Source: Pseudodesulfovibrio sp.
GTDB taxonomy: Bacteria; Desulfobacterota; Desulfovibrionia; Desulfovibrionales; Desulfovibrionaceae
Length of the DNA stretch: 39,770 bases
NCBI RefSeq assembly: GCF_028692895.1
Contig: NZ_JAQUWN010000032.1
Coordinates: 1 to 39,770 of the forward strand
Direction: 5' to 3'
Shown here: in pieces, positions 2,773-21,160 of the stretch
How positions within the stretch are numbered: the first letter of the stretch is position 1
Layout: every line of letters starts with the position of its first letter
Notes under the pieces: model-generated
Told to the model about the DNA's origin: nothing
The model's database searches: none
Seen by the model: only the letters and a program-made list of their open reading frames with translations
Made by a program: the position numbers and the translations under genes

Positions 2773-3864
2773 CTAGCGGAGCGCGCCCGGGTCCTCGATT
2801 TCGGCCAGCATGCGCTCGGCCATCTTCGGGTTGCGCACGTGGAACCGGATGTCGCGAAAACTGCGGCCCTGCACCCGGCAGATATGGCAGCACTCGGGCT
2901 GGGCGGGCGTGTTCACCAGCCGCCGGAACCGGGTGATCTTCTCGCCGTACCACAGCTCGTCGAACCCGGACTCGAGCAGGTTGCCGATGGGCTTGCCGGT
3001 GCGGCCGCAGCAGAAGCGGACGTCGCCGGCGAGATCGATCATGCAGTTCTTCCACGGGCTGTGGCAGACCTTGCCGCCGCATTCCCCGGACTCGCAGGCC
3101 GCGTCGTCGGCGAAGAAGCCGGGCACGGACAGCTCGATCCCCCCCGCCTCGGCCTCGGCCATGGCCCTGCGCATGCAATCGTCGCTCAGTTCCTGGGCGA
3201 AGAAGAGGGTCTCCCGGGCGATGTCCTCCCGCTCGCCGGGCGCAAAGGCGAAGATGACCAGCAGCCTGTCCACGCCCAGCGCGGCGGCCCGGGCCGTCAG
3301 GTCCGGCAGTTCGCGGATGTTGCGCAGCATGGCCACGAAATTGATCTGGACCTCGGGCTTTTGCCGGCCGCGCGCGTCGCGCTCGCGCACCAGGGCGCCG
3401 ATGTTGCCGAGCACGTTCTCCAGGTCGCCGCCCCGGATGGACGCGTAGGTGTCCTGCGTGGCCGCCTCCAGGCTGATCTTGATAAGGGAGGCGTTGTTGT
3501 CGAGGAGCAGGGCGCGCCGCCCGGCGTCCAGGAGCGATCCGTTGGTGATGAGCTCGATCTCGCACTCGTTTTGCCCGGCCAGGGCGCAGAGGTCGGCCAG
3601 CCGGGGGTAGAGCAGGGGCTCGCCCCCGAAAAACTGCATGGTCTTGACCGAGGGCAGGACGTGGCGCAGCCGCTCAATGACAGCCCAGTCCATGTCGCCC
3701 TTGAACTCCGGCTGGTAGCACATCCAGCAGCGGTAGTTGCAGCGCAGGGTGGTGGTCAGGGTGACCAGCTTGGGATAGGTGATGACGTCCTCCCAGGCGT
3801 TTTCCGCCACGTAGCGGTCGTTGAGCTGGTCGTTGAGCCGGGTCAGGCGCTGGTTGGCGTTCAT
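2773..3864 (-). CDS. Radical SAM/SPASM-like protein, last gene of the glycan locus
   Basis: This 363-residue enzyme has the radical SAM 4Fe-4S motif CX3CX2C at C42, C46 and C49 (RCNYRCWMCY), then a GGEPLL motif typical of SAM binding near residue 95. A cluster of C-terminal cysteines (ECGGKVC, KNC, RFCC, ECCHIC) fits a SPASM/twitch-type auxiliary cluster domain. The substrate is unknown. Position at the end of a sugar locus suggests modification of a sugar or glycoconjugate, which is inference. Start at 3864 follows GAGGAA and overlaps the upstream GT2 stop by ATGA (3861-3864), indicating translational coupling. The palindrome at 2701-2756 follows the stop. Confidence 0.88.
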   Translation of the reverse strand: MNANQRLTRLNDQLNDRYVAENAWEDVITYPKLVTLTTTLRCNYRCWMCYQPEFKGDMDWAVIERLRHVLPSVKTMQFFGGEPLLYPRLADLCALAGQNECEIELITNGSLLDAGRRALLLDNNASLIKISLEAATQDTYASIRGGDLENVLGNIGALVRERDARGRQKPEVQINFVAMLRNIRELPDLTARAAALGVDRLLVIFAFAPGEREDIARETLFFAQELSDDCMRRAMAEAEAGGIELSVPGFFADDAACESGECGGKVCHSPWKNCMIDLAGDVRFCCGRTGKPIGNLLESGFDELWYGEKITRFRRLVNTPAQPECCHICRVQGRSFRDIRFHVRNPKMAERMLAEIEDPGALR

Positions 3865-4814
3865 GCGTGGTTCCTCGTGGTGTCTGTGGTGTCGCCGCTC
3901 AGGAAGACGCCCTCCTCCACCCACAGGCCGTGGTAGGGACGCCAGGAGTCGGCCTGGTCCGGCGAGATGCGGTGACGGATGTTCACGGTGAAGGGTTCGG
4001 GGTACGCCGCGCGCACGCTCCGGGCCAGGGCGTCGATGCCGGACTTCTCCAGGCCGTCCACGGGGTGGACGAAGTCGAAGTGGGCCGTCTGACGGCGCAG
4101 GGCCGGGCGGGAGCGGATGTCCCAGTTGTTGCGCAACTGCTCGTCGCGCCGCGTCATGAAGTTGCAGGCCTCGTGCACCCGGTAGTGGTAGAGCCGCTCG
4201 TTCACGAAGTCGATCTTCTCCGGCCCGGCCAGCTCGGCCATGGGCAGGTAGAGGGAGAGGTCGCCCGCGGAGCGGAAGTACGCGCCGTCGCGGTCGCGGA
4301 AGGTCTCGTCCGGGAGCAGGGAAAAGAGGTAGGCCTTGAAGGACCGCAACTGGGAAAACCCCCAGGCCTGGGCGCGCGGCGGCGCCGTGCGGAGGAACGG
4401 CCGGGCCACGGAATGGTCCTGGCCCTCGATGTCCTCGTCCGTGTAGACCAGGTCGTACCCGGCCAGGTGGCGGGCCAGGAGCTTTTCCAGGCAGGCGGGG
4501 CGAATCCAGTCGTCGCTGTCCAGGATGGCCACCACGTCGGCCGGGCGAAGGTCCAGGGAGCGCAGGGCGGCCAGGGTGTTGCCCATGAGCCAGGCCCGCT
4601 CCCCGCCGGTGCGCAGCCGGATGCGCGGGTCGGCCAGGTAGGGGCGGACGCGCTCGGCCGTGTCGTCGGAGGAGCAGTCGTCGGCCACCAGGGCGGTCCA
4701 GCCGGTGAAGGTCTGGGCCAGCAGCGAGTCCAGGCACTCGCCGATGTACGGCCCGCAGTTGTGGCCGGGGATGACCACGAAGAAGCGTTGCGGCGCGAGC
4801 AGGCTTTCGGTCAT
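3861..4814 (-). CDS. Family 2 (GT-A) glycosyltransferase
   Basis: This is a 317-residue soluble glycosyltransferase with the GT2 fold: VVIPGHNCGPYI at the N-terminus, a nucleotide-binding acidic turn (ADDCSSDD) near residue 43, and the metal-binding DXD equivalent ILDSDDW near residue 95. No membrane segment is visible. Donor and acceptor cannot be read from the sequence. The SD is weak, but the next gene overlaps by 4 bases. An 82-base gap separates it from the upstream GT4-radical SAM gene, one of the larger gaps in the locus; it holds a run of eight A on the minus strand and a 13-codon frame. Confidence 0.88.
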   Translation of the reverse strand: MTESLLAPQRFFVVIPGHNCGPYIGECLDSLLAQTFTGWTALVADDCSSDDTAERVRPYLADPRIRLRTGGERAWLMGNTLAALRSLDLRPADVVAILDSDDWIRPACLEKLLARHLAGYDLVYTDEDIEGQDHSVARPFLRTAPPRAQAWGFSQLRSFKAYLFSLLPDETFRDRDGAYFRSAGDLSLYLPMAELAGPEKIDFVNERLYHYRVHEACNFMTRRDEQLRNNWDIRSRPALRRQTAHFDFVHPVDGLEKSGIDALARSVRAAYPEPFTVNIRHRISPDQADSWRPYHGLWVEEGVFLSGDTTDTTRNHA

Positions 4815-4896
4815 CGCGACAGGCCGTCCGGGGTGGGGAGTCGTTCGTCCATGGCGTCTCTTCGGCTGTTTCCGTTTTTTTTCTTAGGCCGCGCGG

Positions 4897-7017
4897 CTAG
4901 TTCCCGGCCATGCGGCCGGGGCCGAGCACGCCCATGCAGGTCTCGCCCAGGCCGTCGCACGGGGCGCACAGGCCGTAGTCCGGGCAAAGGTCCACGCAGA
5001 TGTCCTCCCGGAGCGGATGGGAAAAGATGTTCTCCATGGGCCGGTCCCGGCGCATGAGCCGGGACACGCACTGGTAGCGGTCGCCCTCGGGGTCGATCAG
5101 GTGGATGCGCTTGCGGCACAGGGCGTCGCGCCCCGCGTCGCGCAGGCAGCCCTCGAAATCGCGCTGGTCCACGTCCACGTCGATGGGCAGGCCCTGCTCG
5201 CGGAAGTGGTCCACGTCCGAGGCCAAGGTGCGTTGGTTCTCGTGGGCCTCGATGGCGTGGGCCGTCAGGGCCAGGCGCGGGTTGTCCAGGATGGTCCGGG
5301 CGTTGCGCAGGAAGATGTCGCGGTCCGGCTGCTGGTGGGCGTGCCAACTGGCGTAGAACCGCACCTCGCGGGTCATGGCGCGCAGTTGGTCGGCCACGTC
5401 CAGGCTCAGGTTGGTGTAGACCGAGACCGAGAGGCGCGGGTCGATGCGGTTGACCAGGCCGGGCAGATCCCTGAACAGGAACGGCTCGCCGCCGGTGAAG
5501 ACCACGGGGCGGCCCTCCCGGTTGATGGCCTCGGCCCAGGCGTCGGCCGTGGCGGGCTTGCGCCGCTTGTCCACCCCGCGCGTCTTCTCGTTGACGCAGT
5601 AGGGGCAGTTCAGGTTGCAGGCCAGGGTCAGGTAGATGCGCAGCTTGCCGTCGAACCGGGCGGGGTTGCGGTAGGCGAAGGCCAGCTCGCGGCCGTGGGC
5701 GTCGGCCAGGGACTCCACCACCCCGGGCCGGTCCGGGGCGTACCGGAAGGCGCGCTGCAAGAAGCCGCGCCGGGTCTCCCCGAAGACGCGGTTGCGCAGG
5801 ACCAGGGCCAGGCCGTAGTTGTCCTGGTGCTCGGCCAGCACGCCCGGCCGGTCCGCGTCGACGGCCCGGTCCTCGTAGAACTCGACGACCGGCGCCACCA
5901 GGGAGTCGGCGAAGTCCGCGTCGCCCCGCTCCAGGTGGGACTGGGCGCAGGCCAGGTAGGCGGCCAGGGTGGCGTGGGTGTTGCGGTTCTCGGCCGCGAA
6001 GTCGAAGAGCGCGGCGCGCCCGGCCTCTCCGGCGCGGGAGGCCAGAAAGTCCGCGAACAGGGCCGCGTTCTCCCGCTCCGAGCCCATGGCCCGGACGTGG
6101 TCCAGCCCGTTGGTCACCAGGCGGCCCCACAGGTCCGGGTCGCGCAGCAGCCCGGAGATGCGGTCCGCCGCGCCCGCCGCGTCGCCCGCCTCCACCAGGA
6201 AGCCGGTCTCGCCGTCCAGGCAGTAGTCGCGCAGGCCGCCGGAGTCCGCGCACACGGGCGTCGCGCCGCAGGCCATGGCCTCCAGGGCCGGGACGGGCGT
6301 CCCCTCCCCGCCGTCCAGGGCCAGCCAGAAGTGGCAGGCGCGCATGGCCTCCGCCCGTTCGGCCCGCGAGGGGCGGCAGAGGTACTCGGCGTCGGCCGGG
6401 AGCGCGTCCGGCCGGGGGCCGGTCCCGAAAAGCTTGAGCCGCGCTGGCACTCCGCGGCCGCGCAGGATCTCGGCCACGGCCAGGAGGTCGGCGAACCCGC
6501 CGCCGGGCGGGGGCTCGATCCACCCGCCCAGGACCGGGCCGTCCGGGCCGGGCATCCGCCGGTCGCCGGGACGGAACAGGTCGAAATCCACGCCGCAGGG
6601 GATGCACGTTGCCCGGCGGGACGCATGGGCGGCCGCCGCCTCCTCCAGCCTGCGCGACGCGGCCACGAGGTGGACGGGCTGCCGCCAGCTCCCGATGACC
6701 GCCTCGCTCGCGCCGGTCGAGCTCCCGAAATCCTCCAGCCAGGCGAACTTGGCGCCCTTGGACGGCGGCAGCGCGGCCACCTTGCCGGTCACGCACCAGG
6801 AGACCGCGACCACGGCGTCCGCGTCCGGGACCTCGCCGTCGCGCAGCAGCGGGGAGTAGGCCCGTTCGGCCCGGACCTCGCCCAGGTCGTAGCCGAAGGC
6901 CTCGGTGCAGGTCAGCCGGACCTCATGGCCCATGTCGGCCAGCAGGTTGGCGAGGCGGACGACATGCCGGCTCCCGCTCTCGTTGGCGTAAATCCGGTTC
7001 ACGAAATTTATCTTCAC
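4897..7017 (-). CDS. Fusion: GT4-like glycosyltransferase + helical linker + radical SAM enzyme
   Basis: This 706-residue protein joins two enzymes. Residues about 1-330 are a GT-B glycosyltransferase of the GT4 type, with the family motif around GEGTPVPALEAMACGATPV (238-255) and TGFLVEAGD (271-279). Residues about 335-450 are Ala-rich and helical, resembling TPR linkers. Residues about 455-706 are a radical SAM domain with C467, C471 and C474 (LACNLNCPYC), GGEP near 503, and a C-terminal cysteine-rich tail (about 670-697) that may hold a second cluster. Start is GTG at 7017, preceded by GAGGTG, and overlaps the GT9 stop as GTGA. The frame is continuous, so this is a true fusion in this sequence. 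Which reaction the radical domain performs is unknown. Confidence 0.88.
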   Translation of the reverse strand: MKINFVNRIYANESGSRHVVRLANLLADMGHEVRLTCTEAFGYDLGEVRAERAYSPLLRDGEVPDADAVVAVSWCVTGKVAALPPSKGAKFAWLEDFGSSTGASEAVIGSWRQPVHLVAASRRLEEAAAAHASRRATCIPCGVDFDLFRPGDRRMPGPDGPVLGGWIEPPPGGGFADLLAVAEILRGRGVPARLKLFGTGPRPDALPADAEYLCRPSRAERAEAMRACHFWLALDGGEGTPVPALEAMACGATPVCADSGGLRDYCLDGETGFLVEAGDAAGAADRISGLLRDPDLWGRLVTNGLDHVRAMGSERENAALFADFLASRAGEAGRAALFDFAAENRNTHATLAAYLACAQSHLERGDADFADSLVAPVVEFYEDRAVDADRPGVLAEHQDNYGLALVLRNRVFGETRRGFLQRAFRYAPDRPGVVESLADAHGRELAFAYRNPARFDGKLRIYLTLACNLNCPYCVNEKTRGVDKRRKPATADAWAEAINREGRPVVFTGGEPFLFRDLPGLVNRIDPRLSVSVYTNLSLDVADQLRAMTREVRFYASWHAHQQPDRDIFLRNARTILDNPRLALTAHAIEAHENQRTLASDVDHFREQGLPIDVDVDQRDFEGCLRDAGRDALCRKRIHLIDPEGDRYQCVSRLMRRDRPMENIFSHPLREDICVDLCPDYGLCAPCDGLGETCMGVLGPGRMAGN

Positions 7018-8312
7018 GCGCGCACCTCGTTTGCGTTGAACAGGGTCCGGGCCTCGGCGAGCACCCGGTCCACGGACAGGTCCCTCAGGCAGGCATACCC
7101 GAGTTCGCAGGAAAATTCACCCGGCCTGAGCCATCCGGGCCCGCTTTTCCGCCCCTGGCAGGGCTGGCAGTCCAGGCCGAGGGAGAGGCAGCGGACCGCC
7201 GGGTTGAGCGGCCGGTTGCGCACCAGGGAGGAGGGGCCGAAGAGGACCAGGGTGGGCGCTCCGGCGGCCGCCGCCAGGTGGGCCAGGCCGCAGTCGTTGG
7301 CCACCACGCCCCGCGCCGCGCGGAGCAGGGAGACCGCCCCGGCCAGGGTGGCGTCGGTGACGAAGGTCGCGCCGGGCGCATCGATGGGGCGCAGGAAATC
7401 CAGCCGGGCGTAGGCCTCCAGGTCCGCCGGGCGGCACAGGACCACCGGGTTCTCCAGGCGGCGGAGCAGCGCATCCATGTGCGGCCAGCGTTTGGAGTCC
7501 CAGCCCACCTTGGAGCCGGGACAGACCACCACGCGGCCGCGCAGTTCGGGCGGGACCGGGACGGAGTCGCACCCGACAAAGGTCAACGCCGGATCGGCCT
7601 CCCGGCCGGTGACGTTGGCGAAGAACCGGGCGGCGAAGCCGGGGCCGTGGCCCTCGACGCCCACGCGGTACGGGGCGTGGAACATGTCCTCCTCCCGCCG
7701 GTTGGCGTGGTCCTCCACGTTCAGGCAGAGGTCCGGGGAGAGCCCGTCCAGCTCCTCGGGCCCGACCACGCGCACGCCGCCGGGCAGGGTCCCCCGGAAG
7801 GCGTCGGCCAGGGACCCGCCGCCCTGGTCGAAAGTGGGGCAGAACCAGGTCTCCCATCCCTGGTCGGCCGAGGCGCGGGCCAGAAAGGAAAGCATGACCA
7901 CGTTGCCGATGCCGCCGTGCGCCTTGACCAGCACGGAACGGACGTCCCTCGGGTCCACCCGCCGGGGCAGGACCACCGGCGACTCGCCTTCCTCGTCCAG
8001 CCGCGCGGCCCGCTCGAAACCCATGAGCGACAGGGCCGTGAGCACGTACGGGGGCGTCGGCCCGCCGGGCGCGACCACCACGGCCGTGGCCGACGGCGCG
8101 CCCGCCCGCCGGGCCAGGTCCGCCAGGTCCGTCCGGCAGGGCGCCAGGTTGCCGCCGCCGAAGGTCTCGACCCGTCCGCAGGCCGGGAGCGCCGCCCGGT
8201 TGCCCTCGTGGCACAGGACCGGGCCGTCCAGGGGGCCGAGGCGGGCCAGGAAAAGTCGATCCGGCTCGGCCAGCCCGGCCACGGGCAGGATGTACACGCG
8301 GGGCGCGGTCAT
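7014..8312 (-). CDS. GT9 (heptosyltransferase-family) glycosyltransferase with N-terminal extension
   Basis: This is a 432-residue protein. From residue 126 (SVLVKAHGGIGNVVML) it follows the ADP-heptose:LPS heptosyltransferase family: VVVCPGSKVGWDSKRWP, a VVANDCGLAHLAAAAG strand-turn-helix and LFGPSS. It ends with the cysteine-rich CQPCQG...CELGYACL tail common in GT9. The first 125 residues are extra compared with plain GT9 proteins, have no recognised motif and contain alternating hydrophobic strands. Such enzymes usually act on LPS core or related acceptors in the cytoplasm; the actual donor is unknown. The start overlaps the upstream stop by ATGA (8309-8312). Confidence 0.87.
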   Translation of the reverse strand: MTAPRVYILPVAGLAEPDRLFLARLGPLDGPVLCHEGNRAALPACGRVETFGGGNLAPCRTDLADLARRAGAPSATAVVVAPGGPTPPYVLTALSLMGFERAARLDEEGESPVVLPRRVDPRDVRSVLVKAHGGIGNVVMLSFLARASADQGWETWFCPTFDQGGGSLADAFRGTLPGGVRVVGPEELDGLSPDLCLNVEDHANRREEDMFHAPYRVGVEGHGPGFAARFFANVTGREADPALTFVGCDSVPVPPELRGRVVVCPGSKVGWDSKRWPHMDALLRRLENPVVLCRPADLEAYARLDFLRPIDAPGATFVTDATLAGAVSLLRAARGVVANDCGLAHLAAAAGAPTLVLFGPSSLVRNRPLNPAVRCLSLGLDCQPCQGRKSGPGWLRPGEFSCELGYACLRDLSVDRVLAEARTLFNANEVRA

Positions 8313-9424
8313 GGCCTGCCCGCCCGTTGCAGGGTGTCGGCGATGTGCCGGGCCCGGCGCTCCCAGGTATGCTCGTCCCGGATGGCCGCCAGGCGCGCGA
8401 GGACGGCGGGGTACTCCCGGACCACGGCGTCCGCGTCCAGGTCGGCCAGGTCCGGCCGGACGGCCCAGCCGATGCCCTGCTCGCGCACGTAGTCGCCCAC
8501 GCGGGTGCCCGCGCCCGCCAGCAGCGGGATGCCGTGGCCCACGGCCTCGAAGAGCTTCAGCGGCACCTGGTGGTCGTGGTAGGGATGCGGGTTGCGCAGG
8601 ATGGCCGCCAGGGCGTGGCCCGCGTAGGCGTCCAGCAACTGGTCGCCCGAGAGGTGGCGGACCGTGGCGTCGGGCGGCAGCCCGCCGTAGCGCGGCCCCC
8701 ACTCCCCCCACTCCTGCTCGCGGCAGCAGATGGTGACCGGCATGCGCTCGGCCAGGCGCAGCACCGGCGTGATGTCCCAGACCGGGGGAACCACGCCGCC
8801 CACATAGATCAGCGAGAGGTCCGCCGCCGAAGCCGGGACCCGGCGCGGCGCCAGGGGCCCGACGTCGTGGCCGGGCGGGCAGGCGACGGCCTTGGCCGCC
8901 AGGGCGCGGGGCAGCAGGCCGGTCATGGCCAGGTCGGGCACGAAGAGCACGTCCAGCACCCGGCGGTAGTACCAGAAGTCCAGGTGGTGGAAGAACTGCC
9001 GCCGCCACCGCTCGAACGGTCCGAACCGCTGCCGGTGGTACGGGTACTTCCAGAAGATGTCGCGGTAGAACAGGCCCACGGGCACCGAGCGCCGCCGCAG
9101 CAGGGCGAAGAGGTCGAAGTCCGAGAAGGGATAGAACGGCTTGTTCCCCTTCTCGGTCAGCAGGGTGGGCAGCACCGAACTCTCGGCGTAGCAGAACGCG
9201 TAGGTCCCGCCGCCTTCCAGCCGGGCCACGGCCCGGCCGATGGCCTGCCGGCGCTGGGCCAGGGGGCCGCTTATGACGTCCACGGCGTAGCCCAGCCCCT
9301 CGAAGGCGCGGATCAGCTTGCCGGGGCGGATGCCGCCGCCGGAGATGGCGTAGCCGAGCTTGAACGGGACGTGGAAGAGGATGCGGGGCCTCTCCTCCTC
9401 CGGTCTGCCTGCCGATTCGCACAT
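8309..9424 (-). CDS. Probable GT-B glycosyltransferase
   Basis: This is a 371-residue soluble protein. N-terminal ILFHVPFKLGYAISGGGIRPGKL resembles the glycine-rich acceptor loop of GT4-like enzymes, and the later stretch around PLKLFEAVGHGIPLLAGAGTRV (about residues 290-311) matches the donor-binding E...G.P motif of GT-B enzymes. The middle (FFHHLDFWYYRRVLDVLFVPDLAMTG) is the usual inter-domain helix region. No membrane segment is seen. It starts 4 bases after the stop of the SpsF-like gene and is coupled to the GT9 gene downstream. Sugar specificity cannot be assigned. Confidence 0.75.
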   Translation of the reverse strand: MCESAGRPEEERPRILFHVPFKLGYAISGGGIRPGKLIRAFEGLGYAVDVISGPLAQRRQAIGRAVARLEGGGTYAFCYAESSVLPTLLTEKGNKPFYPFSDFDLFALLRRRSVPVGLFYRDIFWKYPYHRQRFGPFERWRRQFFHHLDFWYYRRVLDVLFVPDLAMTGLLPRALAAKAVACPPGHDVGPLAPRRVPASAADLSLIYVGGVVPPVWDITPVLRLAERMPVTICCREQEWGEWGPRYGGLPPDATVRHLSGDQLLDAYAGHALAAILRNPHPYHDHQVPLKLFEAVGHGIPLLAGAGTRVGDYVREQGIGWAVRPDLADLDADAVVREYPAVLARLAAIRDEHTWERRARHIADTLQRAGRP

Positions 9425-9428
9425 GCCG

Positions 9429-10226
9429 TCACCGCCGGGGAGTATCCAGGATACGGGTATTGACCCGCGCCCGGTAGACGGGGTCGTGGAAACGGTCGGG
9501 CACCTCGCGGTTGATGGCCGCCAGGTCCGGCGAGGCGTCGAGCAGGGCCACGATCTCGCGGATGGAGATGGCGCTCGGGTCCTTGTCCAGCCGCTCGCAC
9601 AGGGCGCGCAGGAAGACGAGGTCCTCCGGGGTGTCCATGGTCAGCCGGTAGTCGGGGCGCAGGCAGTCCGGCTCGGCGTCGAGCCGGAGCACGCGGAAGA
9701 CCTCGGGCTGGTCGAAGAACCAGGTCAGGTCGCAGGAGTCGCTGGTGTCCTCGGCGCAGCGGTAGGCCCGCTCCAGGGCGGAGAACGAGATGACCTCGGC
9801 CTTCATGCCCCAGGGCAGGCCGTCGGTGGTGGACCAGTCCGCCCCCTCGGCCGCGTGGCGGCGCACCTGGCGGTCCAGGTGCTCGGTGCAGGGAAAGAGG
9901 TTGTCGCCCAGGGCCCGGACCACCAGGTCCGCGCCGTAAAGCCGGGCCGCCTCGTAGAACCGGCAGAGCACGTCGTCGCCCTTGCCGCGAAAGCAGGGGC
10001 GGCCGAGCTGTTCGGCCGCGTCGGCCAGGGCGTCGTCCACGGGCTCGTCCGAGGTGCAGACCACCACCTCGTCCACGGTCGCGGCCCGGTCGAGCCGTTC
10101 GAGAATGTGCTCCAGGGCCAGGCGGCCGCGCACCAGGCGCAGGGCCTTGTGCGGCAGCCGCTGGGAGGTCAGGCGGACGCCCAGGAGGGCGACGGTGCGC
10201 GGAAGCGTGTTTTCGCCCATGCTCAT
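9429..10226 (-). CDS. SpsF-like cytidylyltransferase
   Basis: This 265-residue protein resembles SpsF/NeuA-type enzymes that activate a sugar acid with CTP. It has the N-terminal nucleotide-binding loop GVRLTSQRLPHKAL, then VVVCTSDEPVDD and FRGKGDDVLCRFYEAA, and an acidic LGDNLFPC that probably binds metal. RLTMDTPEDLVFL near residue 200 is the usual SpsF C-terminal motif. It directly follows the NeuB-like synthase with an ATGA overlap (10223-10226), so the simplest inference is that it converts the nonulosonic acid made by that enzyme to its CMP form. The alternative ATG at 10220 would lose two residues. Confidence 0.85.
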   Translation of the reverse strand: MSMGENTLPRTVALLGVRLTSQRLPHKALRLVRGRLALEHILERLDRAATVDEVVVCTSDEPVDDALADAAEQLGRPCFRGKGDDVLCRFYEAARLYGADLVVRALGDNLFPCTEHLDRQVRRHAAEGADWSTTDGLPWGMKAEVISFSALERAYRCAEDTSDSCDLTWFFDQPEVFRVLRLDAEPDCLRPDYRLTMDTPEDLVFLRALCERLDKDPSAISIREIVALLDASPDLAAINREVPDRFHDPVYRARVNTRILDTPRR

Positions 10227-11278
10227 TCCCCGAAGTCGCCGGTCTCGAACAGGGCGTCGGCGACCACGTCGCGCGCCAGGGTCTTGCCGACGAACTCGTC
10301 CAGGCGGGTTGGCGGGATGCCGGTGCCGGGCCGCTTGCAGACCACGTCCTCGGCCTCGAGCACGCTCCCCTTTGGCAGGTCGCGGGCGGCCACGAGGCTG
10401 CGCCGGGCAAAGGAGCGGGCCGGGCGCTCGCAATCCAGGACCGCCTTGCCGCCCGTGCCCAGGGCCGCCTCCAGGGTGCGGACGTCGGCCACCAGGCGGG
10501 CCAGGTCCGCCTCGTCCAGGGAGAGCCAGTGGTCCGCGCTGTCGGGCAGGGTCTTGTCGAAGGTGTAGTGCTTTTCGATGGCGCGCACGCCGTAAAGGAC
10601 CGAGGCCGAGGCCACGACCGTGCCGAGGGTGTGGTCGCTGAAGCCGATCAGCTTGTCCGGGAACGCCTCCTGGAGCTTGAGCACGGCCCGCAGGTTGGCG
10701 TCCTTGGGCTCGGTGGGGTAGCACAGGGTGCAGTGCATCACGCAGACCTGGTCGTTGCCCCGGGAGTGGATGACCTCCACGGCCCGGCGGATGTCCTCCA
10801 TGGACGACGCGCCCGTGGAAAGCAGGATGGGCAGCCCCTTGGACGCCACGTATTCCAGGAACGGGATGTTGTTGATGTCGCAGGAGGCGATCTTGAACCC
10901 GTTGACGCCGATCTCGACCAGCATGTCCACGGCCTCGTTGTCGAAGGGCGTGGAGAGGAACTCGATGCCGTGGGCGTCGCACATCTCCTTGAGCCTGCGG
11001 TGCTCCTCCTTCCCGAACGAGTCGAGGATGCTGTAGGAGTCGTACTGGCTCCCCTCCTTGTCGTGCTCTCCCTCCCAGTTCCAGAAGCGCGGGGCGTTCC
11101 GGGTGGTCAGCCTGGCCGCCTTGTAGGTCTGGAACTTTATCATGTCCGCGCCCGCCCGCTTGGCCGACGCGATGAGCTTTTCCGCATAGTCCATGCGGCC
11201 GAGGTGGTTCACGCCCGCCTCGGCTATGACCATGGTCCGGTCCTCGGACGCAATCGCCTTACCTATTCTGAATTCCAT
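10223..11278 (-). CDS. NeuB-family nonulosonic acid (sialic/legionaminic/pseudaminic-type) synthase
   Basis: NeuB-type enzymes condense phosphoenolpyruvate with a 6-carbon amino sugar to a 9-carbon acid. The 351-residue protein has the family order: VIAEAGVNHLGRMDYAEKLI (17-36), IKFQTYK, LSTPFDN, FKIASCDINN, LLSTGASS, MHCTLCYPT, IGFSDHTLG and IEKHYTFDK. A C-terminal SAF (antifreeze-like) domain follows, from about residue 285 (RRSLVAARDLPKGSVL). It is complete, unlike the neuB' remnant at 17322-17444. Its N-terminal 20 bases overlap the GT2 gene and the 3' end overlaps the SpsF-like gene. The exact sugar (sialic, legionaminic or other) is not decidable here. Confidence 0.92.
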   Translation of the reverse strand: MEFRIGKAIASEDRTMVIAEAGVNHLGRMDYAEKLIASAKRAGADMIKFQTYKAARLTTRNAPRFWNWEGEHDKEGSQYDSYSILDSFGKEEHRRLKEMCDAHGIEFLSTPFDNEAVDMLVEIGVNGFKIASCDINNIPFLEYVASKGLPILLSTGASSMEDIRRAVEVIHSRGNDQVCVMHCTLCYPTEPKDANLRAVLKLQEAFPDKLIGFSDHTLGTVVASASVLYGVRAIEKHYTFDKTLPDSADHWLSLDEADLARLVADVRTLEAALGTGGKAVLDCERPARSFARRSLVAARDLPKGSVLEAEDVVCKRPGTGIPPTRLDEFVGKTLARDVVADALFETGDFGE

Positions 11279-11943: not shown

Positions 11944-13308
11944 CTACTTGGCGGCCGCCGCCCGTTCGCCGGTGTCGGCTATGCCGGTGATATGGCCGGA
12001 AACGGGCTCGCTGGTCGCCCCGTCGGTGGTCTCCACCACCCACTTCTCCAGCAGGGCGGCCAGGTCCTCGGCCGTGCCCGGGAAATCCTCCAGGGTGAAG
12101 GGGGCGTTCTCCCGCTGGCGCCGCTCCAGGAAGCGGGCGATCCCGGACTCGATGGTATGGACCGAGGCCCCGCGCACGCTGACCAGGTGGAATCCGTCCT
12201 CCTCGCGCCAGCGCAGCCGCGCCGGGGCCACGAAGGTCTTGACCTGCGCCATCTCCAGGAACGGGCTCCGGATCACCTCGGGGGACGGCAGCCCGCCCGG
12301 CCCGGGGGCCAGGAGGTCCATGTCCGCCAGGTCCCTGGTGTAGGTCCGGCAGCCGCCCTCGCACTTGGGGAGCCAGGCGCAGGCGCGGCAAGGGCCGGGG
12401 ATGAGCGAGTCGTCGCGCCACATCCGCATGTTCTCCCAGCAGGCCCGGATGCCGTCGGTCAGGGCGTTGCCGTACTTGCGGCTCTCGTGGACGCAGGCGT
12501 GGGTGTCGCCGTTGGCGTTGATGGTCAGGAGCTTGCGGCCCGCCTGGCAGCCCCGGCCGACGTAGTCCCTGTATTTGACCACGTCCTTGAGGAAGCAGAC
12601 CGGATACTGGATCAGGGAGCCGATGTGGATGCCGGTGTCCTCCTTGACCCGGATGGACTCGTCCAGGATGAGGCGCTTCTGCTCCTCGGGCGTGAGCTGA
12701 AGCTCCTTTTCCAGGTCGGAGTCGTCGCAGTGGGAGGGGACCATCCGCGTGGTGAAGAAGTTGGTCACGCCCAGCTCGTGCAGGAACTTGCCCGTCTCGT
12801 ACACGTAATCCTTGTTGCGCTGGGTCACGATCATGTTGGAGCTGACCCGGACGCCCGCGTCCACCGTGGCCCGGATGCCCGCCACGATGCGCTCGAGCGC
12901 GCCCTTGCGGCTGACCATCATGTCGTTGATCTCGGCGTGGCAGCAGTTGAGGCTGGTCAGGACATGGGGCAGGCCGTAGTCGGCGAAGCGGCGCATCTTT
13001 TCCGGGGTCGCGTTCAGCAGGTTCGAGTTCATGGTGATGGCGACCCCGTTCTCGGTCAGCCGCCGCATGAAGTGTTCGAGGACCCTGCCGTTGAGCAGGC
13101 ACTCGCCGCCGGTGAGAATGACCTGGAAGACCTCGTTCTCGACGACGTCGTCGATCAGCTTGTCGGCCATGGCGATGTCGATGACCGCATCCGGCTCCGA
13201 CGAATGACGCCAGAAATTGTAGCAGTGGCGGCACTTCTGGTTGCAGGCCGTGGTCAGCTCGACGCTGATGCAGGTCGGCGATTTGATGGTAGGAAAGAGG
13301 ATGCCCAT
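11944..13308 (-). CDS. Radical SAM/SPASM enzyme with C-terminal small domain
   Basis: This is a 454-residue protein with CX3CX2C at C22, C26 and C29 (ACNQKCRHCY) and LTGGECLL for SAM contact. SPASM-type cysteines appear as GRGCQAG, HACVHES and GPCRACAWLPKCEGGC, suggesting two auxiliary clusters. The last 90 residues (about 365-450) resemble a PqqD-like small domain, a weak match by eye. SPASM enzymes modify peptides, but some act on sugars; context favours a sugar or glycoconjugate substrate. I chose ATG 13308 because GGAG lies 7 bases upstream. An in-frame ATG at 13344 overlaps the upstream stop as ATGA but has poor SD spacing. Confidence 0.85.
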   Translation of the reverse strand: MGILFPTIKSPTCISVELTTACNQKCRHCYNFWRHSSEPDAVIDIAMADKLIDDVVENEVFQVILTGGECLLNGRVLEHFMRRLTENGVAITMNSNLLNATPEKMRRFADYGLPHVLTSLNCCHAEINDMMVSRKGALERIVAGIRATVDAGVRVSSNMIVTQRNKDYVYETGKFLHELGVTNFFTTRMVPSHCDDSDLEKELQLTPEEQKRLILDESIRVKEDTGIHIGSLIQYPVCFLKDVVKYRDYVGRGCQAGRKLLTINANGDTHACVHESRKYGNALTDGIRACWENMRMWRDDSLIPGPCRACAWLPKCEGGCRTYTRDLADMDLLAPGPGGLPSPEVIRSPFLEMAQVKTFVAPARLRWREEDGFHLVSVRGASVHTIESGIARFLERRQRENAPFTLEDFPGTAEDLAALLEKWVVETTDGATSEPVSGHITGIADTGERAAAAK

Positions 13309-13340
13309 GATCTCGCTCCGTTGTTCCGGGACGACGCGCG

Positions 13341-14306
13341 TCATCCCGCCGTTTTCGGCATTGCCGTCAGGTGGCGCCAGCGGGGGCTGGCGGCGCCCGA
13401 TTCCACAAGCATGGCGTCCATGGCGGAAAGCCAGCGGGCCATGCGATGTTCCCTTGCCCTGTCTTCTATGCGCAGGCCGCCGATGATCCTGTCGGTCAGG
13501 CCGTAGTCGTCGCCCAGGTCCGTGATGTCGAACCCCTTGGCCACGTGTTCGGTTATGTCGTCGAAATCCGACTCGTTGTCGTGGGGCGACTGCGGGCTCC
13601 CGCCCCCGGCGTCCCGGTATTCCAGCTCGCACCCCACGGCGTGGATGTCGGCCTCCAGCCGGGCTTCCCAGCCTTCGGCCAGGCCGCCCTGGTGATACAT
13701 GCCGCCCTCGGCCAGCAGGGTCCGGACCAGGTGGGCCAGCACGGCCTCCCGCCGGGTGACGCGCCTGCGGCTCGGCTCGCTGACGAAGAGCCGCCCGCTC
13801 GGCCGGAGCAGCCCCCGGACCCGGGCCAGCGCCCCCGGCACGTCCGGGAAATGGTGCAGGGCCCCGACGAAGACCGCCAGGTCGTATCCGTCCGGGTCCC
13901 GGAAATCCTCCAGGCTGCTCACCAGGTAGCGCAGCGGGCCGCGCTCCCCGGCAAGGGGGTCGGCCCCGGCCGTTTCCCCGGCCACGCGGATCGCCTCCGC
14001 GGAAATGTCGATGCCCGTGACGTCGTGGCCGTGGCGCGCCAGCTCCAGGGCGATGTGCCCCGGCCCGCAGCCTATCTCCAGGATGCGGCGCGGCTCCCCG
14101 GCCACGTCCAGGATGCGCCGGGCGATGGCCCCGTACACCAGGTCCACGTAGACCGGGTCCCGCCAGACGTTGTTGCGGAACCACTCGCACCGCCCGGCGC
14201 GGCGCAGGTCCGGCACGTGGCCGTGGGCCATCCGCTCCCGGATCTGGGCGTCGAAGGCCCCGGCCTCTCCTGCCAGGTCGCGGGCGCTCTTTTCGGGCTT
14301 GGTCAT
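13341..14306 (-). CDS. SAM-dependent class I methyltransferase
   Basis: This is a 321-residue cytoplasmic methyltransferase. The SAM-binding motif I is ILEIGCGPGHIALELA (75-90), followed by the acidic end of strand 2 (VTGIDIS) and motif LAVFVGALHHFPD about 60 residues later. The C-terminal part is divergent and probably recognises the acceptor. The substrate is likely a sugar hydroxyl or amino group in this locus (inference). The start at 14306 follows AAGGAGG by 7 bases and overlaps the upstream stop by ATGA (14303-14306). Confidence 0.88.
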   Translation of the reverse strand: MTKPEKSARDLAGEAGAFDAQIRERMAHGHVPDLRRAGRCEWFRNNVWRDPVYVDLVYGAIARRILDVAGEPRRILEIGCGPGHIALELARHGHDVTGIDISAEAIRVAGETAGADPLAGERGPLRYLVSSLEDFRDPDGYDLAVFVGALHHFPDVPGALARVRGLLRPSGRLFVSEPSRRRVTRREAVLAHLVRTLLAEGGMYHQGGLAEGWEARLEADIHAVGCELEYRDAGGGSPQSPHDNESDFDDITEHVAKGFDITDLGDDYGLTDRIIGGLRIEDRAREHRMARWLSAMDAMLVESGAASPRWRHLTAMPKTAG

Positions 14307-15778
14307 GCGCGGGCCTCCTTGGATGCGCTCTGCCGCGTTTCGAGGTCGAGCCCCGGAACCCCGGCGTATCGGGCCAGGACCGGCTCCGGCTCCCCGGCGG
14401 CGCGCTCCGGGGGGCGCACCGTGCGCAGGGCCTGGGCAAAACTTGCCGGATCGGGCGCATAGAGGCACGACCCGTCGTCGATGACGTCCCGGTACACCAG
14501 CAGGCCGTGGTAGTGGACCACCACGGACGGGACCCCGAATTCCCGCGCCTCCAGCACGCAACTGGAGCATCCGGTGACGTGGACGTCCGTGTCGGCCAGC
14601 AGCGTGGTCAGGGGCAGCGCGGTGGATCTCGCCACCTCGAAGTGCACCAGTCCCTTTTCATGCAGTTTCCGTTCCCAGTACCCGGTCCGATGCGCCGCGC
14701 CGGGATGCAGCCGGAACAGGATGGCGTTTTCCCGGCTGAGCTCCGCCAGGCTCCCGTAGATCCAGTCCGGGAACATGGATTCGTCCTGGTGCGTCACCAG
14801 GATGCGCCGCAGCCCGGTGTCCGCCAGCGGAGAATCCCCGGCGGCCCCGGCGGCCGGCGCGCGGCTCCACCGCTCGATCCACGGATAGCCCGCCACGAAC
14901 GGGACGTGGCCCGACACCCCGCTCGCCTCGCGCCAGCGGTCGATGACCCGGCGGTCCGACTCGCTCCATACCGCGAAACGGTCGGGCAGCACCGAGTAGC
15001 CCGCCGGGGGGACGTTCTCCCACCGGCCGTAGGCCGGGTGCCACTGGCCCTGCACCCCGTGCTGCACGTCCACCACCGGGATGGACAGGCGGCGGGCGGC
15101 CTGCACGGCGGCCATCTGCTTCACCGCGTAGTAGCAGGCCAGGAAGAGCGCCCTGGGCCGCAGGGCGCGGAAGATGTCCTCGAAACAACCGGCCAGGGCG
15201 TTGAACCGCCACAGGTCGCACCCGCGCTCGATCATGCCCACGGCCACCTTCAGCCCCCTGGCGGCCAGGGCGTCGCGCACCGCCTCCCAGCCGGGCAGGC
15301 CGAGCTCGGCGGCGGACCGGGGGTCGCGCGGGGTGGCCGAGGCGCGCTCCTCCAGCACTCCGTTGACGAAAAATCGGTCGTCCCGGCGGCGGGGGGAGTA
15401 GCCGTGGAGGCCCTCCAGCTCCAGCCGGACGCAGGCGAGCCCGGCCGCGCGCAGGGCGTCCATGACCGGGTCCAGGTAGATGTCGACCCGTTCCTCGCCC
15501 ACCCGCTTGACGTAGGCGGCGTTGGACAGGAACACGCAGTCCGCCCCCCGGGCGGCGTCGAACCGGAACCGGGCGCGGGCGAGCTCGTCGGCCCCCTCGG
15601 GGTCGGGCGGGACCGGGGCGCGGTCCAGGCCGTAGTCCAGGCGCTCGAAAATCTCGAAAAGCGCGCGCATGCGGATGAGCGGCCACAGGGAAACCCCGCC
15701 CGCCGTCCAGCGGGTCACCGGGGTGGTCCTCTCCAGCTCGTTGAGCAGGACGACCAGTTCATCCCTCTTGACAGGCAC
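14303..15778 (-). CDS. GT-B-like surface polysaccharide biosynthesis protein
   Basis: This is a 491-residue protein of the capsule/surface carbohydrate type. The N-terminal WTAGGVSLWPLIR recalls a motif of such proteins, and VVDVQHGVQGQWHPAY (QHG at 239-241) is the characteristic acceptor-domain loop. Later VTHQDE, ILFRLHPGAAH and VTGCSSCVLEAREFGVPSVVVH (about residues 425-446) match the donor half of GT-B/CDP-glycerol-phosphotransferase-like folds. A transferase role is therefore likely, but the sugar is unknown. Start is GTG at 15778 after GGGAGG. It begins 15 bases after the stop of the neuA' remnant. Confidence 0.75.
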   Translation of the reverse strand: MPVKRDELVVLLNELERTTPVTRWTAGGVSLWPLIRMRALFEIFERLDYGLDRAPVPPDPEGADELARARFRFDAARGADCVFLSNAAYVKRVGEERVDIYLDPVMDALRAAGLACVRLELEGLHGYSPRRRDDRFFVNGVLEERASATPRDPRSAAELGLPGWEAVRDALAARGLKVAVGMIERGCDLWRFNALAGCFEDIFRALRPRALFLACYYAVKQMAAVQAARRLSIPVVDVQHGVQGQWHPAYGRWENVPPAGYSVLPDRFAVWSESDRRVIDRWREASGVSGHVPFVAGYPWIERWSRAPAAGAAGDSPLADTGLRRILVTHQDESMFPDWIYGSLAELSRENAILFRLHPGAAHRTGYWERKLHEKGLVHFEVARSTALPLTTLLADTDVHVTGCSSCVLEAREFGVPSVVVHYHGLLVYRDVIDDGSCLYAPDPASFAQALRTVRPPERAAGEPEPVLARYAGVPGLDLETRQSASKEARA

Positions 15779-15793: not shown

Positions 15794-15925
15794 TCATCCG
15801 GCCCAGGGCCGGGCCGCCACGGTATAGGCCAGCAGCGGCTGGCCCGCGAGACGGCGGATGTTCTTGTCCGGTATCCGCTTGGAGCCGCCGCGGGCCGGGA
15901 TCAGGGCGAGGCGGGTGCTGGTCAT
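15794..15925 (-). pseudogene. neuA' remnant: N-terminal 43 codons of an acylneuraminate cytidylyltransferase
   Basis: The frame starts at ATG 15925 and stops after 43 codons. Residues 6-23 (LALIPARGGSKRIPDKNI) are the CTP-binding signature of NeuA enzymes, followed by LAGQPLLAYTVAA as in the family. The full-length relative at 30639-31343 shares LALIPARGGSK.IP.KNI and the G.PL.AY stretch. After AYTVAA the protein ends RPWAG and stop, so about 80 percent of the enzyme is missing. The start still overlaps the previous gene by ATGA (15922-15925). It could be translated as a short peptide, but it lacks any complete catalytic domain. Confidence 0.8.
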
Positions 15926-17322
15926 GCCGCCTCCTCCGCCAGGGGCCGGAACCGGCCGGGCAGCTCGCCCACGCAGCGCAGCACGCGGTCGCCGTAGGCG
16001 TCGTCGCCGGTCATGACCAGCGGCTGCATGGCGGCCCGCAGCCGTTCCGCCACGCCCGGCTCGTCCGCCATGGCCAGGAGCCGGGGCAGCGCGCCGAAGA
16101 ATTCCTCCCGGCCGCGGCAGGCCATGACCCCGTCCAGCTTGAACCAGTCCTCGAAATGCATCATCCGCGACACCTTGTCCGCGCTCCAGGAGTGCACGCC
16201 GTCGCCGAAGGCCGTGGCCATGATCGGCAGCCCGGCCGCCATGGACTCCAGCAGGATGGAGGACATGGGACTGGCCACCGCGTCGAGCACGGAATAGAGC
16301 CGCGCCAGGTAATGCATGGAAAAGGTCCGGTGGCGGGAGGTGATGGTGGTGTTGCGCCTCTTGGCGTCGCCGTAGGAGTCCTCGCGCTCCGGGTCCATGA
16401 CCACGTTTCTCCAGCCCAGGTCGAGGAAGTTCTCCTCGTGCTCCCGGCGCAGCCGCCAGGGGTGGGGGCGGTAGACCACGCGCATGGCGGGCAGGTCGCC
16501 GCGCTCGATGCGCTCGTCCAGCTCGCGCAGCAGGGCCGTCTCGTCGAAATAGCGCAGGGTGCCCGCGAAGAGCAGGGACGGGACGCCGGGGCGCAGGCCG
16601 AGCCGTTCGGCCAGATCCTCGTCGCGCGCCTCGCGGCAGTGGCGGAAGGCGTCGAAGTGCGGCGCGCCCACGATGCGGACCCGCTCCCTGGGCATGTCCT
16701 GGACCGTCACGGCGTGCTCCAGGCTCTGGCGGCCCCACACGCCCATGAGCGTGGGCAGCCGCAGGAGCAGCCCCTTGCTGCACAGGTTGTCCCAGCCGGT
16801 CTGGAGCAGGAGCACCGGGATGTCCAGGGCCTCGGCGGCCTGGAGCAGGTCGTCGGTGCCGGAGTCGAGCAGCAGCGAGGGCAGGACGATGAATTCCGGC
16901 CTGAGCCGGTCCAGGGCGGCCGTCAGCTCCGGGTGGAGCCCCAGGGCGGCCTCGGTCTCGGCCACGTGGCGGCGGTAGTGCTCCGGCCGGGCGAGCCGCT
17001 CGTAGCGCGCGTACCGCTCCGGGTCGGCCCGGCGCGACTCCTCGTGGCGGACGCGGAACGACGGGCTGCGGTCCCGGTGCCGGATGCAGGAAATGTTGAA
17101 CAGTTCGGCCCAGGCGGCCATGCGCTCGGGCCGGTGGGGGACCCAGACCACCTCTCCCACCGGGTGCGGGGCGTGGGCCAGTATCAGCTCCCCGGTCATG
17201 TTCTCCGCGCTGCGCAGGGCCACGAAGGTCACGTCGTGGGCCGCGCAGAGCGGGCCGAACGCGCCGTGGGCCAGATGGCGCTGCACGGGGTCCGCCCCCT
17301 GGAGGAAGACGCAGCCGCGCAT
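15922..17322 (-). CDS. GT-B-like glycosyltransferase or polysaccharide biosynthesis protein
   Basis: This is a 466-residue soluble protein with no close family that I can name. Features seen: PEFIVLPSLLLDSG and IPVLLLQTGWDNLCSKG (a GT-B acceptor-side loop, like QHG proteins), VRIVGAPHFDAFRHC, then VVYRPHPWR and SPMSSILLESMAAGLPIMATAFGDG (about residues 355-379), a donor-site motif of GT-B and epimerase-fold proteins. ATG 17322 follows GGAGG by 4 bases and shares one base with the stop of the neuB' remnant (TGATG). An upstream in-frame ATG at 17361 would add 13 Gly-rich residues without homology. The gene ends in an ATGA overlap with neuA'. Confidence 0.7.
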   Translation of the reverse strand: MRGCVFLQGADPVQRHLAHGAFGPLCAAHDVTFVALRSAENMTGELILAHAPHPVGEVVWVPHRPERMAAWAELFNISCIRHRDRSPSFRVRHEESRRADPERYARYERLARPEHYRRHVAETEAALGLHPELTAALDRLRPEFIVLPSLLLDSGTDDLLQAAEALDIPVLLLQTGWDNLCSKGLLLRLPTLMGVWGRQSLEHAVTVQDMPRERVRIVGAPHFDAFRHCREARDEDLAERLGLRPGVPSLLFAGTLRYFDETALLRELDERIERGDLPAMRVVYRPHPWRLRREHEENFLDLGWRNVVMDPEREDSYGDAKRRNTTITSRHRTFSMHYLARLYSVLDAVASPMSSILLESMAAGLPIMATAFGDGVHSWSADKVSRMMHFEDWFKLDGVMACRGREEFFGALPRLLAMADEPGVAERLRAAMQPLVMTGDDAYGDRVLRCVGELPGRFRPLAEEAA

Positions 17323-17444
17323 CACGCCTCCGCCGCCCTCGCCGGAGCGATGCGTCCCCACTCCGGGCCGCCCCGGAAGTTCCGCCCGGTCTCCGCGACG
17401 ATGAAACAGGGGGCATCGCCGATCATGCGGCTGCCGATCTGCAT
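17322..17444 (-). pseudogene. neuB' remnant: N-terminal 40 codons of a nonulosonic acid synthase
   Basis: The frame runs from ATG 17444, with an upstream AGGAAAGGAAA-type SD, for 40 codons. It opens with IGSRMIG then APCFIVAETGRNF, which matches the IG.....VIAEAGVNH start of NeuB-family enzymes; the intact NeuB at 10223-11278 has MVIAEAGVNHLG at the equivalent place. After about residue 23 the similarity fades into a Gly/Ala/Arg-rich tail and stop. The stop overlaps the start of the downstream GT-B-like gene as TGATG. A fragment, not a functional synthase. Confidence 0.65.
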
Positions 17445-20202: not shown

Positions 20203-21150
20203 CTACTCTCCCGCTCCGGCCGGGGCGCCCGCGCTGGAGTGCTGCATGGCGCCGGGGTTGGTCTTCTTGCTGTTGGACCTGGGCAGGGTGCAGTTCCGGC
20301 AATGCTCCAGCTCGCCGCCGCGTCCCGCCTCCATGTACTCCCGGTACTTGGTGAAGTGCTTGTCGTTGAAGATGGCGATGGGGTCGTCGGTGAAGACGTT
20401 GCCGTGGTCGAAGTAGCCGTTGGCGTCCGGCGGGCACAGGGCCACGCGGCCGTCGGAGAAGATGATCAGCCTGTCGAAGAGGTAGCCGCAGACGTAGCCG
20501 CCGATGGGGTCGTCGTCGCACGCCTTGCTCTCGTAGTCCTCCACGGACCCGGCGCAGTTGTGCACGTCGAACCGGATGACGTCGTCCCCCTTGCCGGGCG
20601 AGACCAGGCCGGACCACAGCTCGTGGAACGGCTCCCACTCGTCGTAGTTGAGCTGCTGGCGGATGAACCGGACCAGGACGCGGGTGCCGTCCGGGTACTC
20701 GGCGTCGCGCAGGGCGAGGAACCGCTTCACGTTGGCCACCACCTCGTCGAAGTCCGTGCCCACCCGGATGGCCTCGTGGGTCTCCTTGCGGGTGCCGTCC
20801 ACGGAGCAGATCAGGGTGTCCAGCCGGGCGTCGAGCAGGCGGCGGGCCATGACCTCGTCCAGCTCGGTGCAGTTGGTGGCCAGGCCCAGGCCCTTGAACC
20901 CGCGGTCCTTGGCGAAGGCGATCTTGTCCGGCAGGTTCCTGTCCAGCAGGGGCTCGCCGTCGCCGTGGAAGGTGAAGTAGTCGATCTCGTCCCGGTGGGG
21001 CTCGAACTTGCGCATCAGCCCGCAGAACTCGTCATAGCTCAGGACGCGGGGCTTGCGCGTCCATTCCTTGAAATTGCACATGATGCATTTCGAGGTGCAG
21101 ACGCCGTTGATGGTCTCGATCTGGACGGGATGGGGGATGAGCCTGGTCAT
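20203..21150 (-). CDS. Radical SAM enzyme with C-terminal cysteine domain
   Basis: This 315-residue protein has CX3CX2C at C18, C22 and C25 (VCTSKCIMC), FHGDGEPLLD as the GGE-like SAM motif, and later cysteines (HNCAG, YVCGY, ALCPPD, EHCRNC) for an auxiliary cluster. The layout resembles SPASM-type enzymes such as those acting on sugar nucleotides in aminoglycoside pathways, but the resemblance is general. ATG 21150 follows GGAGG. It lies 10 bases after the aminotransferase, suggesting work on the same sugar nucleotide (inference). Confidence 0.87.
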   Translation of the reverse strand: MTRLIPHPVQIETINGVCTSKCIMCNFKEWTRKPRVLSYDEFCGLMRKFEPHRDEIDYFTFHGDGEPLLDRNLPDKIAFAKDRGFKGLGLATNCTELDEVMARRLLDARLDTLICSVDGTRKETHEAIRVGTDFDEVVANVKRFLALRDAEYPDGTRVLVRFIRQQLNYDEWEPFHELWSGLVSPGKGDDVIRFDVHNCAGSVEDYESKACDDDPIGGYVCGYLFDRLIIFSDGRVALCPPDANGYFDHGNVFTDDPIAIFNDKHFTKYREYMEAGRGGELEHCRNCTLPRSNSKKTNPGAMQHSSAGAPAGAGE

Positions 21151-21160
21151 GGGGGCCTCC

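Follow-up and report, generated by a model that had tools for sequence, protein, structure and literature searches.

A rare fusion of a GT4-type glycosyltransferase half and a radical SAM domain in a probable surface-glycan operon of Pseudodesulfovibrio

Known enzymes comparable to the one analysed here include radical SAM (rSAM) enzymes acting on sugars or sugar-like compounds. According to one paper, SPASM domains carry a seven-cysteine motif, CX9-15GX4C-gap-CX2CX5CX3C-gap-C, and the twitch domain is a truncated form with a single auxiliary cluster, which in BtrN is fully bound by four cysteines; in the twitch fold, one cysteine lies on each side of a beta-hairpin and two lie past the next helix (PMC6231123). 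BtrN, the twitch dehydrogenase of butirosin biosynthesis, acts on a sugar-like cyclitol and resembles the rSAM half studied here in its rSAM core and its C-terminal four-cysteine auxiliary cluster (PMC9012708, PMC6231123). Its auxiliary cluster is probably the electron acceptor in a two-electron oxidation (PMC9012708). In contrast to our enzyme, BtrN has no fused glycosyltransferase (GT), and the rSAM domain of the window has one more conserved cysteine. BtrN was not found among the listed matches of the rSAM half, which comprised 17 profile matches and the best 50 of 913 Foldseek matches. A second comparison is the epimerase NeoN, an rSAM enzyme that acts on a sugar of the assembled aminoglycoside and in which a cysteine returns the hydrogen; no fusion is mentioned in the passages on it (PMC10991966). 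NeoN and HygY are likened to the present enzyme by description, not by sequence. HygY is reportedly, judging from the title of the paper, an rSAM epimerase of an aminoglycoside sugar like NeoN, which switches from the epimer to an oxidised product when a cysteine is changed. The epimerase EpeE/YydG acts on a peptide. It was the best Foldseek match of our rSAM model and a weak profile match, with an identity of 12%.

On the glycosyltransferase side, MshA, PimA, BshA and PglA are GT4 enzymes that are similar by Foldseek. The window copy differs from them by the rSAM fusion and, compared with BshA, carries glycine where BshA has K-R. Also close are stand-alone rSAM genes in glycan operons of Pseudodesulfovibrio (for example P. 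pelocollis SB368, L007/L038), with 49-53% identity depending on the stretch aligned. They have the same cysteine signature and lie near GT9, GT2, GT1 and FkbM genes, but lack the GT half and the linker. A word search of the open-access literature found no GT-rSAM fusion in print. In the relevant passages of one paper, rSAM and glycosyltransferase domains are named separately among effectors of conflict systems, not as fused to each other (PMC7159879). Likewise, an open-access word search found no rSAM chemistry on bacterial surface glycans, which is not proof of absence.

Architecture of the fusion gene

The window, by which we mean the whole analysed stretch of 39,770 nucleotides, contains the fusion gene with the following features.

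4897..7017, minus strand: gene of the GT4-rSAM fusion, encoding 706 aa from a GTG at 7017 (supported by homologous fusions)
6028..7017, minus strand: GT4-type (GT-B) half, residues 1-330 (Pfam, Foldseek, rate tests)
6496..6504, minus strand: GGG at residues 172-174; RKR in the three other fusions covering the site
6280..6306, minus strand: EX7E, E238 and E246, both retained (alignment of fusions)
5674..6027, minus strand: helical linker, residues 331-448 (helices in the model, alignments)
4900..5673, minus strand: rSAM domain with twitch-like tail, residues 449-706 (Pfam, model, stand-alone relatives)
5596..5619, minus strand: CX3CX2C SAM-cluster motif, residues 467-474 (14/14 sequences)
5068..5118, minus strand: CX10GX4C, proposed first half of an auxiliary site, residues 634-650 (14/14 sequences)
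4954..4986, minus strand: CX5CX2CD, proposed second half of the auxiliary site plus spare cysteine, residues 678-688 (14/14 sequences)

An uninterrupted frame of 706 codons at 4897-7017 had been predicted, and the coordinates proved exact. The prediction named no strand; the protein is encoded on the minus strand and is not what one reads from 4897..7017 on the plus strand. In the alignment of fusions the GTG start coincides with the ATG of the relatives, and it shares 4 bases (GTGA) with the stop of the GT9 gene lying upstream. The predicted order of a GT4-like domain (1-330), a helical linker and an rSAM domain with CX3CX2C at 467-474 agreed with Pfam, the structure model and the alignments. 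No stop codon separates the GT and rSAM domains in the fusion frame, and GC3 is at least 0.95 in all three parts (GT 0.95, linker 1.00, rSAM 0.97). A sequencing error hiding a stop, which had been raised as a possible refutation, was ruled out by the normal codon use and by homologous fusions in four other genomes. Nor are the homologues always encoded as separate genes, as five fusions were found with the window included. The GT4-rSAM architecture is real. It is rare among the genomes searched, while its component domains are individually of known kinds. The linker was found in the fusions and is missing from the stand-alone rSAM relatives in the alignments. A structure model of the whole fusion was poor (mean pLDDT 65.5, pTM 0.41). 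Scans for terminators and sigma-70 promoters between positions 2600 and 12000 of the window returned nothing.

The GT half matched Pfam Glyco_trans_1_4 (PF13692) at about 178-304 with 51.4 bits (cutoff 27) and Glycos_transf_1 over about the same residues with 48.3 bits (cutoff 26.4). With the whole-fusion model, MshA, PimA, PglA and BshA were among the best Foldseek matches (MshA, E 9.9e-13), and a profile match to BshA covered positions 156-320 (E 2.2e-14). The EX7E motif is the GT4 signature. In the relatives, K173 and R174 align with the K-R of BshA, which we take to be basic residues of the donor site contacting the donor phosphate. The window copy has glycine there, in the GGG at 172-174, and these basic residues are thus not retained. 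G14 of the N-terminal glycine pair is also lost. In GT4 enzymes, residues like this basic cluster and glycine pair are seemingly not specificity residues only.

The rSAM half matched Pfam Radical_SAM (PF04055) at 462-548 with 41.6 bits (cutoff 29.5), and C467, C471 and C474 were invariant in the alignments. Its tail, CX10GX4C...CX5CX2CD, does not follow the SPASM motif, and no Pfam SPASM match was obtained at E<=0.01. The cysteine pattern is rather that of a twitch domain, provided by C634, C650, C684 and C687, with C678 as a fifth conserved cysteine. The two parts of the tail signature are spaced by 23-35 residues in the 14 sequences, window included; in one of these an additional cysteine lies upstream, and the pattern search started earlier there. 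This arrangement suggests one auxiliary [4Fe-4S] cluster plus a spare cysteine. In the whole-fusion model, strands were placed at 638-641 and 647-650 and a helix at 671-677, mostly with pLDDT <50. A separate model of the rSAM half (442-706; mean pLDDT 82.0, pTM 0.82) placed strands at 630-637, 639-641 and 675-681 and a helix at 651-656. The fold of the tail differs between the two models, so the twitch assignment was made from the cysteine spacing alone. Foldseek matches of the rSAM model were weak. EpeE came first (E 5.7e-4, TM 0.45), with the sugar deaminase DesII also top-ranked, and anSME, a protein-acting enzyme, followed close behind. No NCBIfam model, the rSAM equivalogs (Rv1681, MoaA, PqqE and others) included, scored above cutoff among the best 25 of 30 matches, where the best rSAM model, NF049973, reached 38.3 bits (cutoff 380).

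Distribution of fused and stand-alone forms

At E<=1e-20 the rSAM half was detected in 8/348 genomes of the class. The fusion is carried by the window genome, G091, MC-09 (G345) and UBA4079 (G082), and a stand-alone rSAM gene by G004, G156, G298 and G014. The stand-alone genes encode 271-330 aa and have an in-frame stop 2-10 codons upstream. Thus the fusion is not required for the rSAM half. The GT half, searched with residues 1-435 of the Desulfobacter vibrioformis fusion as query, turned up in 4/348 class genomes (E<=1e-18), all of them fusion carriers. A wider scan covered 84,980 species with one genome each and was confined to regions picked out by two short peptide patterns. It added a complete fusion in D. 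vibrioformis, which belongs to another class (Desulfobacteria), and, from an Elusimicrobia MAG, the stand-alone relative L042. The fusion is therefore present in five genomes including the window, complete in four and cut in one. In the latter, MC-09, it is split by a contig start: the C-terminal half of the GT, the linker and the rSAM domain form one frame, and the N-terminal piece lies on another contig. Identity to the window fusion was 60% for G091, 51% for UBA4079 and 51% for D. vibrioformis DSM 8776 (698 aa).

The rSAM tree contained 11 domains; three of the 14 sequences were left out after a tree with distant outgroups had failed to resolve. The five fusions split from the six other sequences with a support of 98. 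The window, G091, MC-09 and D. vibrioformis grouped apart with a support of 99, and the order inside this group had supports of 47 and 64. Rooted with two stand-alone sequences, L042 and the viral contig L089, the tree suggests one fusion event and a later transfer between classes.

It had been proposed that sugar transfer and radical modification act on the same acceptor or are channelled. While the architecture on which this proposal was built stands, obligate channelling is unlikely, because the rSAM half is stand-alone in four relatives and the GT half occurs only with the fusion (4/348).

Among the 53 genome-contig loci scanned, 7 (L036-L042) belong to the rSAM family. Of the other 46, 16 were read; they looked QueE-like by eye, lacked C..C[DGA] in the last 60 residues and are taken as chance rSAM look-alikes. 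A sample of the phylum gave rSAM profile matches at E<=1e-20 in 3/395 genomes, the window's own and two distant ones. Distant stand-alone rSAM genes with CX10GX4C...CX5CX2CD were observed in other genomes of the phylum (L133 and L134, from G463 and G414). Since the signature occurs in these two, it may define a wider unnamed family. Plasmid searches returned 9 matching records, none covering 80% of the query, and the listed matches all lay within residues 56-339. Phage records gave no match with two queries, and a viral scan with the whole fusion as query revealed no relative.

Fast change of the GT half in the window copy

Changes were counted at positions where the other three complete fusions (G091, G082 and D. 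vibrioformis) all carry one and the same residue. Four fusions entered these counts; MC-09 was left out because it is cut by the contig start. The window had altered 65/185 invariant positions in the GT half, 2/27 in the linker and 15/124 in the rSAM half. With each of the other fusions in focus, the altered positions in the GT half were 6/126 for G091, 23/143 for D. vibrioformis and 18/138 for G082. In relative rate tests of the window against G091 with G082 as outgroup, changes split 79:24 for the GT half, 5:10 for the linker and 23:21 for the rSAM half. With D. vibrioformis they were 89:19, 11:7 and 29:23, but this outgroup is unsafe, as the rSAM tree pairs D. vibrioformis with G091 (support 47). 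Such a pairing would void this second test and the fixed topology used for branch lengths, whereas the G082 test is independent of it. On that fixed topology, with only three other complete fusions, branch lengths of the window and G091 were 0.89/0.13 for the GT half, 0.49/0.21 for the linker and 0.37/0.27 for the rSAM half. Over residues 1-150, identity is 77% between G091 and D. vibrioformis, which belong to different classes, but 57% between the window and G091, which belong to one genus. By these comparisons the fast amino-acid change of the GT half is confined to the window copy.

Replacement of the GT half by a diverged paralogue was considered and is not supported. The four-fold synonymous difference between the window and G091 was 0.35 in the GT half, 0.37 in the linker and 0.30 in the rSAM half. 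Synonymous divergence is thus alike in the three parts and gives no sign of a swapped-in domain, with the reservation that these values may be saturated. A close second copy of the GT half was not found in the window's own genome, where the one other match had an E of 1.3e-5. A separate GT-half copy was likewise absent from the 348 class genomes (E<=1e-18, same query as above).

The window GT half is likely under relaxed constraint, and normal donor binding has likely been lost. EX7E and normal codon use are kept, and the half may be active with an altered donor. Consequently, the relatives give better grounds for a joint action of sugar transfer and radical modification, as in the original prediction, than the window copy does, where the relaxed GT half and the loss of the BshA-aligned basic cluster weaken the case.

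Operon context and proposed role

The fusion gene is part of a tight run on the minus strand, in the order NeuB, CTP-transferase, GT1, GT9, fusion, GT2 and rSAM/SPASM. The gaps in this order are -4, 4, -4 (GT9 ATG at 8312), -4, 82 and -4 bases. The frame following the run on the opposite strand is presumably glutamate-racemase-like.

9429..11278, minus strand: genes for a CTP-transferase-like protein and for the NeuB synthase, in the upstream part of the run (Pfam, spacing)
8309..9424, minus strand: GT1 glycosyltransferase-like gene (Pfam PF13524, 25.2 bits, cutoff 25)
7014..8312, minus strand: GT9, conserved operon partner (Pfam PF01075, ATG at 8312)
3861..4814, minus strand: GT2, conserved operon partner (Pfam PF00535)
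2773..3864, minus strand: separate rSAM/SPASM gene, last of the run (Pfam)

Nine close loci, window included, were compared over stretches of 4-40 kb with the window genes and the FkbM gene of G091 as queries, and missed partners may lie outside these stretches. For GT9 the query was 7017-8309 or 7017-8234. GT9 and GT2 were each linked in 7/9 loci, FkbM in 6/9, GT1 in 4/9 and the SPASM gene in 2/9; at least one of GT9, GT2 and FkbM stood beside the rSAM gene in 9/9 loci. From these counts the recurring unit consists of rSAM, GT9, FkbM and GT2, and by the same comparison the fused GT4 is an addition to it, present in 5/9 loci. Near the window fusion FkbM is absent, and an 82-base gap (4815-4896) lies between the fusion and GT2. 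Elsewhere in the window's genome, at E<=1e-5, FkbM gave only a 33% match to residues 174-370 of 375. By Pfam, the window's cluster also contains NeuB, PseF-like, DegT and dTDP_sugar_isom genes.

The explanation we prefer, and hold tentatively, is a twitch-like, sugar-modifying rSAM enzyme attached to the C-terminus of a GT4 in a surface-glycan operon, with a GT that is probably impaired in the window copy. The neighbouring transferases would build a surface glycan. To judge by the NeuB, PseF-like, DegT and dTDP_sugar_isom genes of the cluster, a nonulosonate or deoxyamino sugar is probably part of it. The rSAM half would cleave SAM and remove a hydrogen from the carbon of a sugar, either in the glycan or in its activated precursor. 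Subsequently, an electron might be passed to the auxiliary cluster, resulting in oxidation as in BtrN, or a hydrogen might be taken back from the spare cysteine, resulting in epimerisation as in NeoN and HygY. Given the spare C678, both outcomes are possible. In the relatives, the GT half is probably responsible for attaching the modified sugar or its neighbour. In the window copy it is probably without normal nucleotide-sugar binding and, if it is kept, could serve as a docking or folding platform. A more specific version is possible but doubtful: a bifunctional GT4 and twitch-like rSAM enzyme would install and then oxidise or epimerise a sugar, and the window species would have turned the GT into a pseudo-glycosyltransferase used as a docking module.

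That both halves are active in the window copy, sequentially on one acceptor or by channelling a substrate, we consider unlikely. The fusion is maintained in five genomes from two classes, both EX7E glutamates are retained in the window copy, and the GTGA shared with GT9 points to tightly coupled expression. However, four close genomes have the rSAM gene as a stand-alone without any relative of the GT half at E<=1e-18, and the window GT half is fast-changing with RKR turned to GGG. A distinctly smaller chance is given to a GT half that is not dying and has changed fast by selection for a new donor or acceptor specificity. Such a change would fit the open frame, the GC3 of 0.95 and the fact that EX7E is retained along with a large part of the C-terminal domain. 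FkbM is also missing from the window cassette, and the glycan may therefore differ. The losses of G14 and of the basic cluster aligned with BshA argue against it, as these positions seem to do more than set specificity.

Modification of a protein or peptide by the rSAM half, for example of a glycosylated surface protein instead of a sugar, appears improbable. It is suggested by anSME, SkfB and YydG/EpeE, which are among the PDB profile and fold relatives and have proteins or peptides as substrates. In contrast, a glycan-type partner (GT9, GT2 or FkbM) stands beside the rSAM gene in all nine close loci. Decay of the whole gene or an assembly artefact, which the fast change of one half might indicate, is very improbable, since the rSAM half is about as conserved as in the relatives with all cluster cysteines kept, and four other genomes carry the fusion.

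For the preferred reading, a sugar-modifying rSAM enzyme on a GT4, the family offers natural test pairs in the form of fused and stand-alone rSAM genes in similar operons. Within one genus, an intact-looking GT half can be compared with a degenerate one.

Some further observations were made. Near the C-terminus of the GT9 of the cassette, C381, C384, C401 and C407 were invariant in 6/6 aligned sequences (from 7 loci with GT9) and possibly form a metal finger. The window's cluster holds four further rSAM genes on the minus strand (2773-3864, 11947-13401, 20206-21201 and 27269-28501), three with a SPASM match and none with a GT match; the last was scanned within the longer frame 27269-29620. Three minus-strand frames, 14306-15778, 15925-17361 and 28504-30642 (491, 479 and 713 aa), had no Pfam match at E<=1e-4.

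Among 38 viral loci, L089, L090 and L091 belong to the rSAM family. Of the other 35, 26 were read, and none of these had C..C[DGA] in the last 60 residues. The three are IMG/VR viral contigs with stand-alone rSAM genes (L089:3641-4393, L090:4823-5575, L091:4983-5657). L089 and L091 were tested and have the same cysteine signature as the fusion rSAM. In L091, FkbM and GT4 genes lie nearby, as if they formed a phage-borne glycan-editing set.
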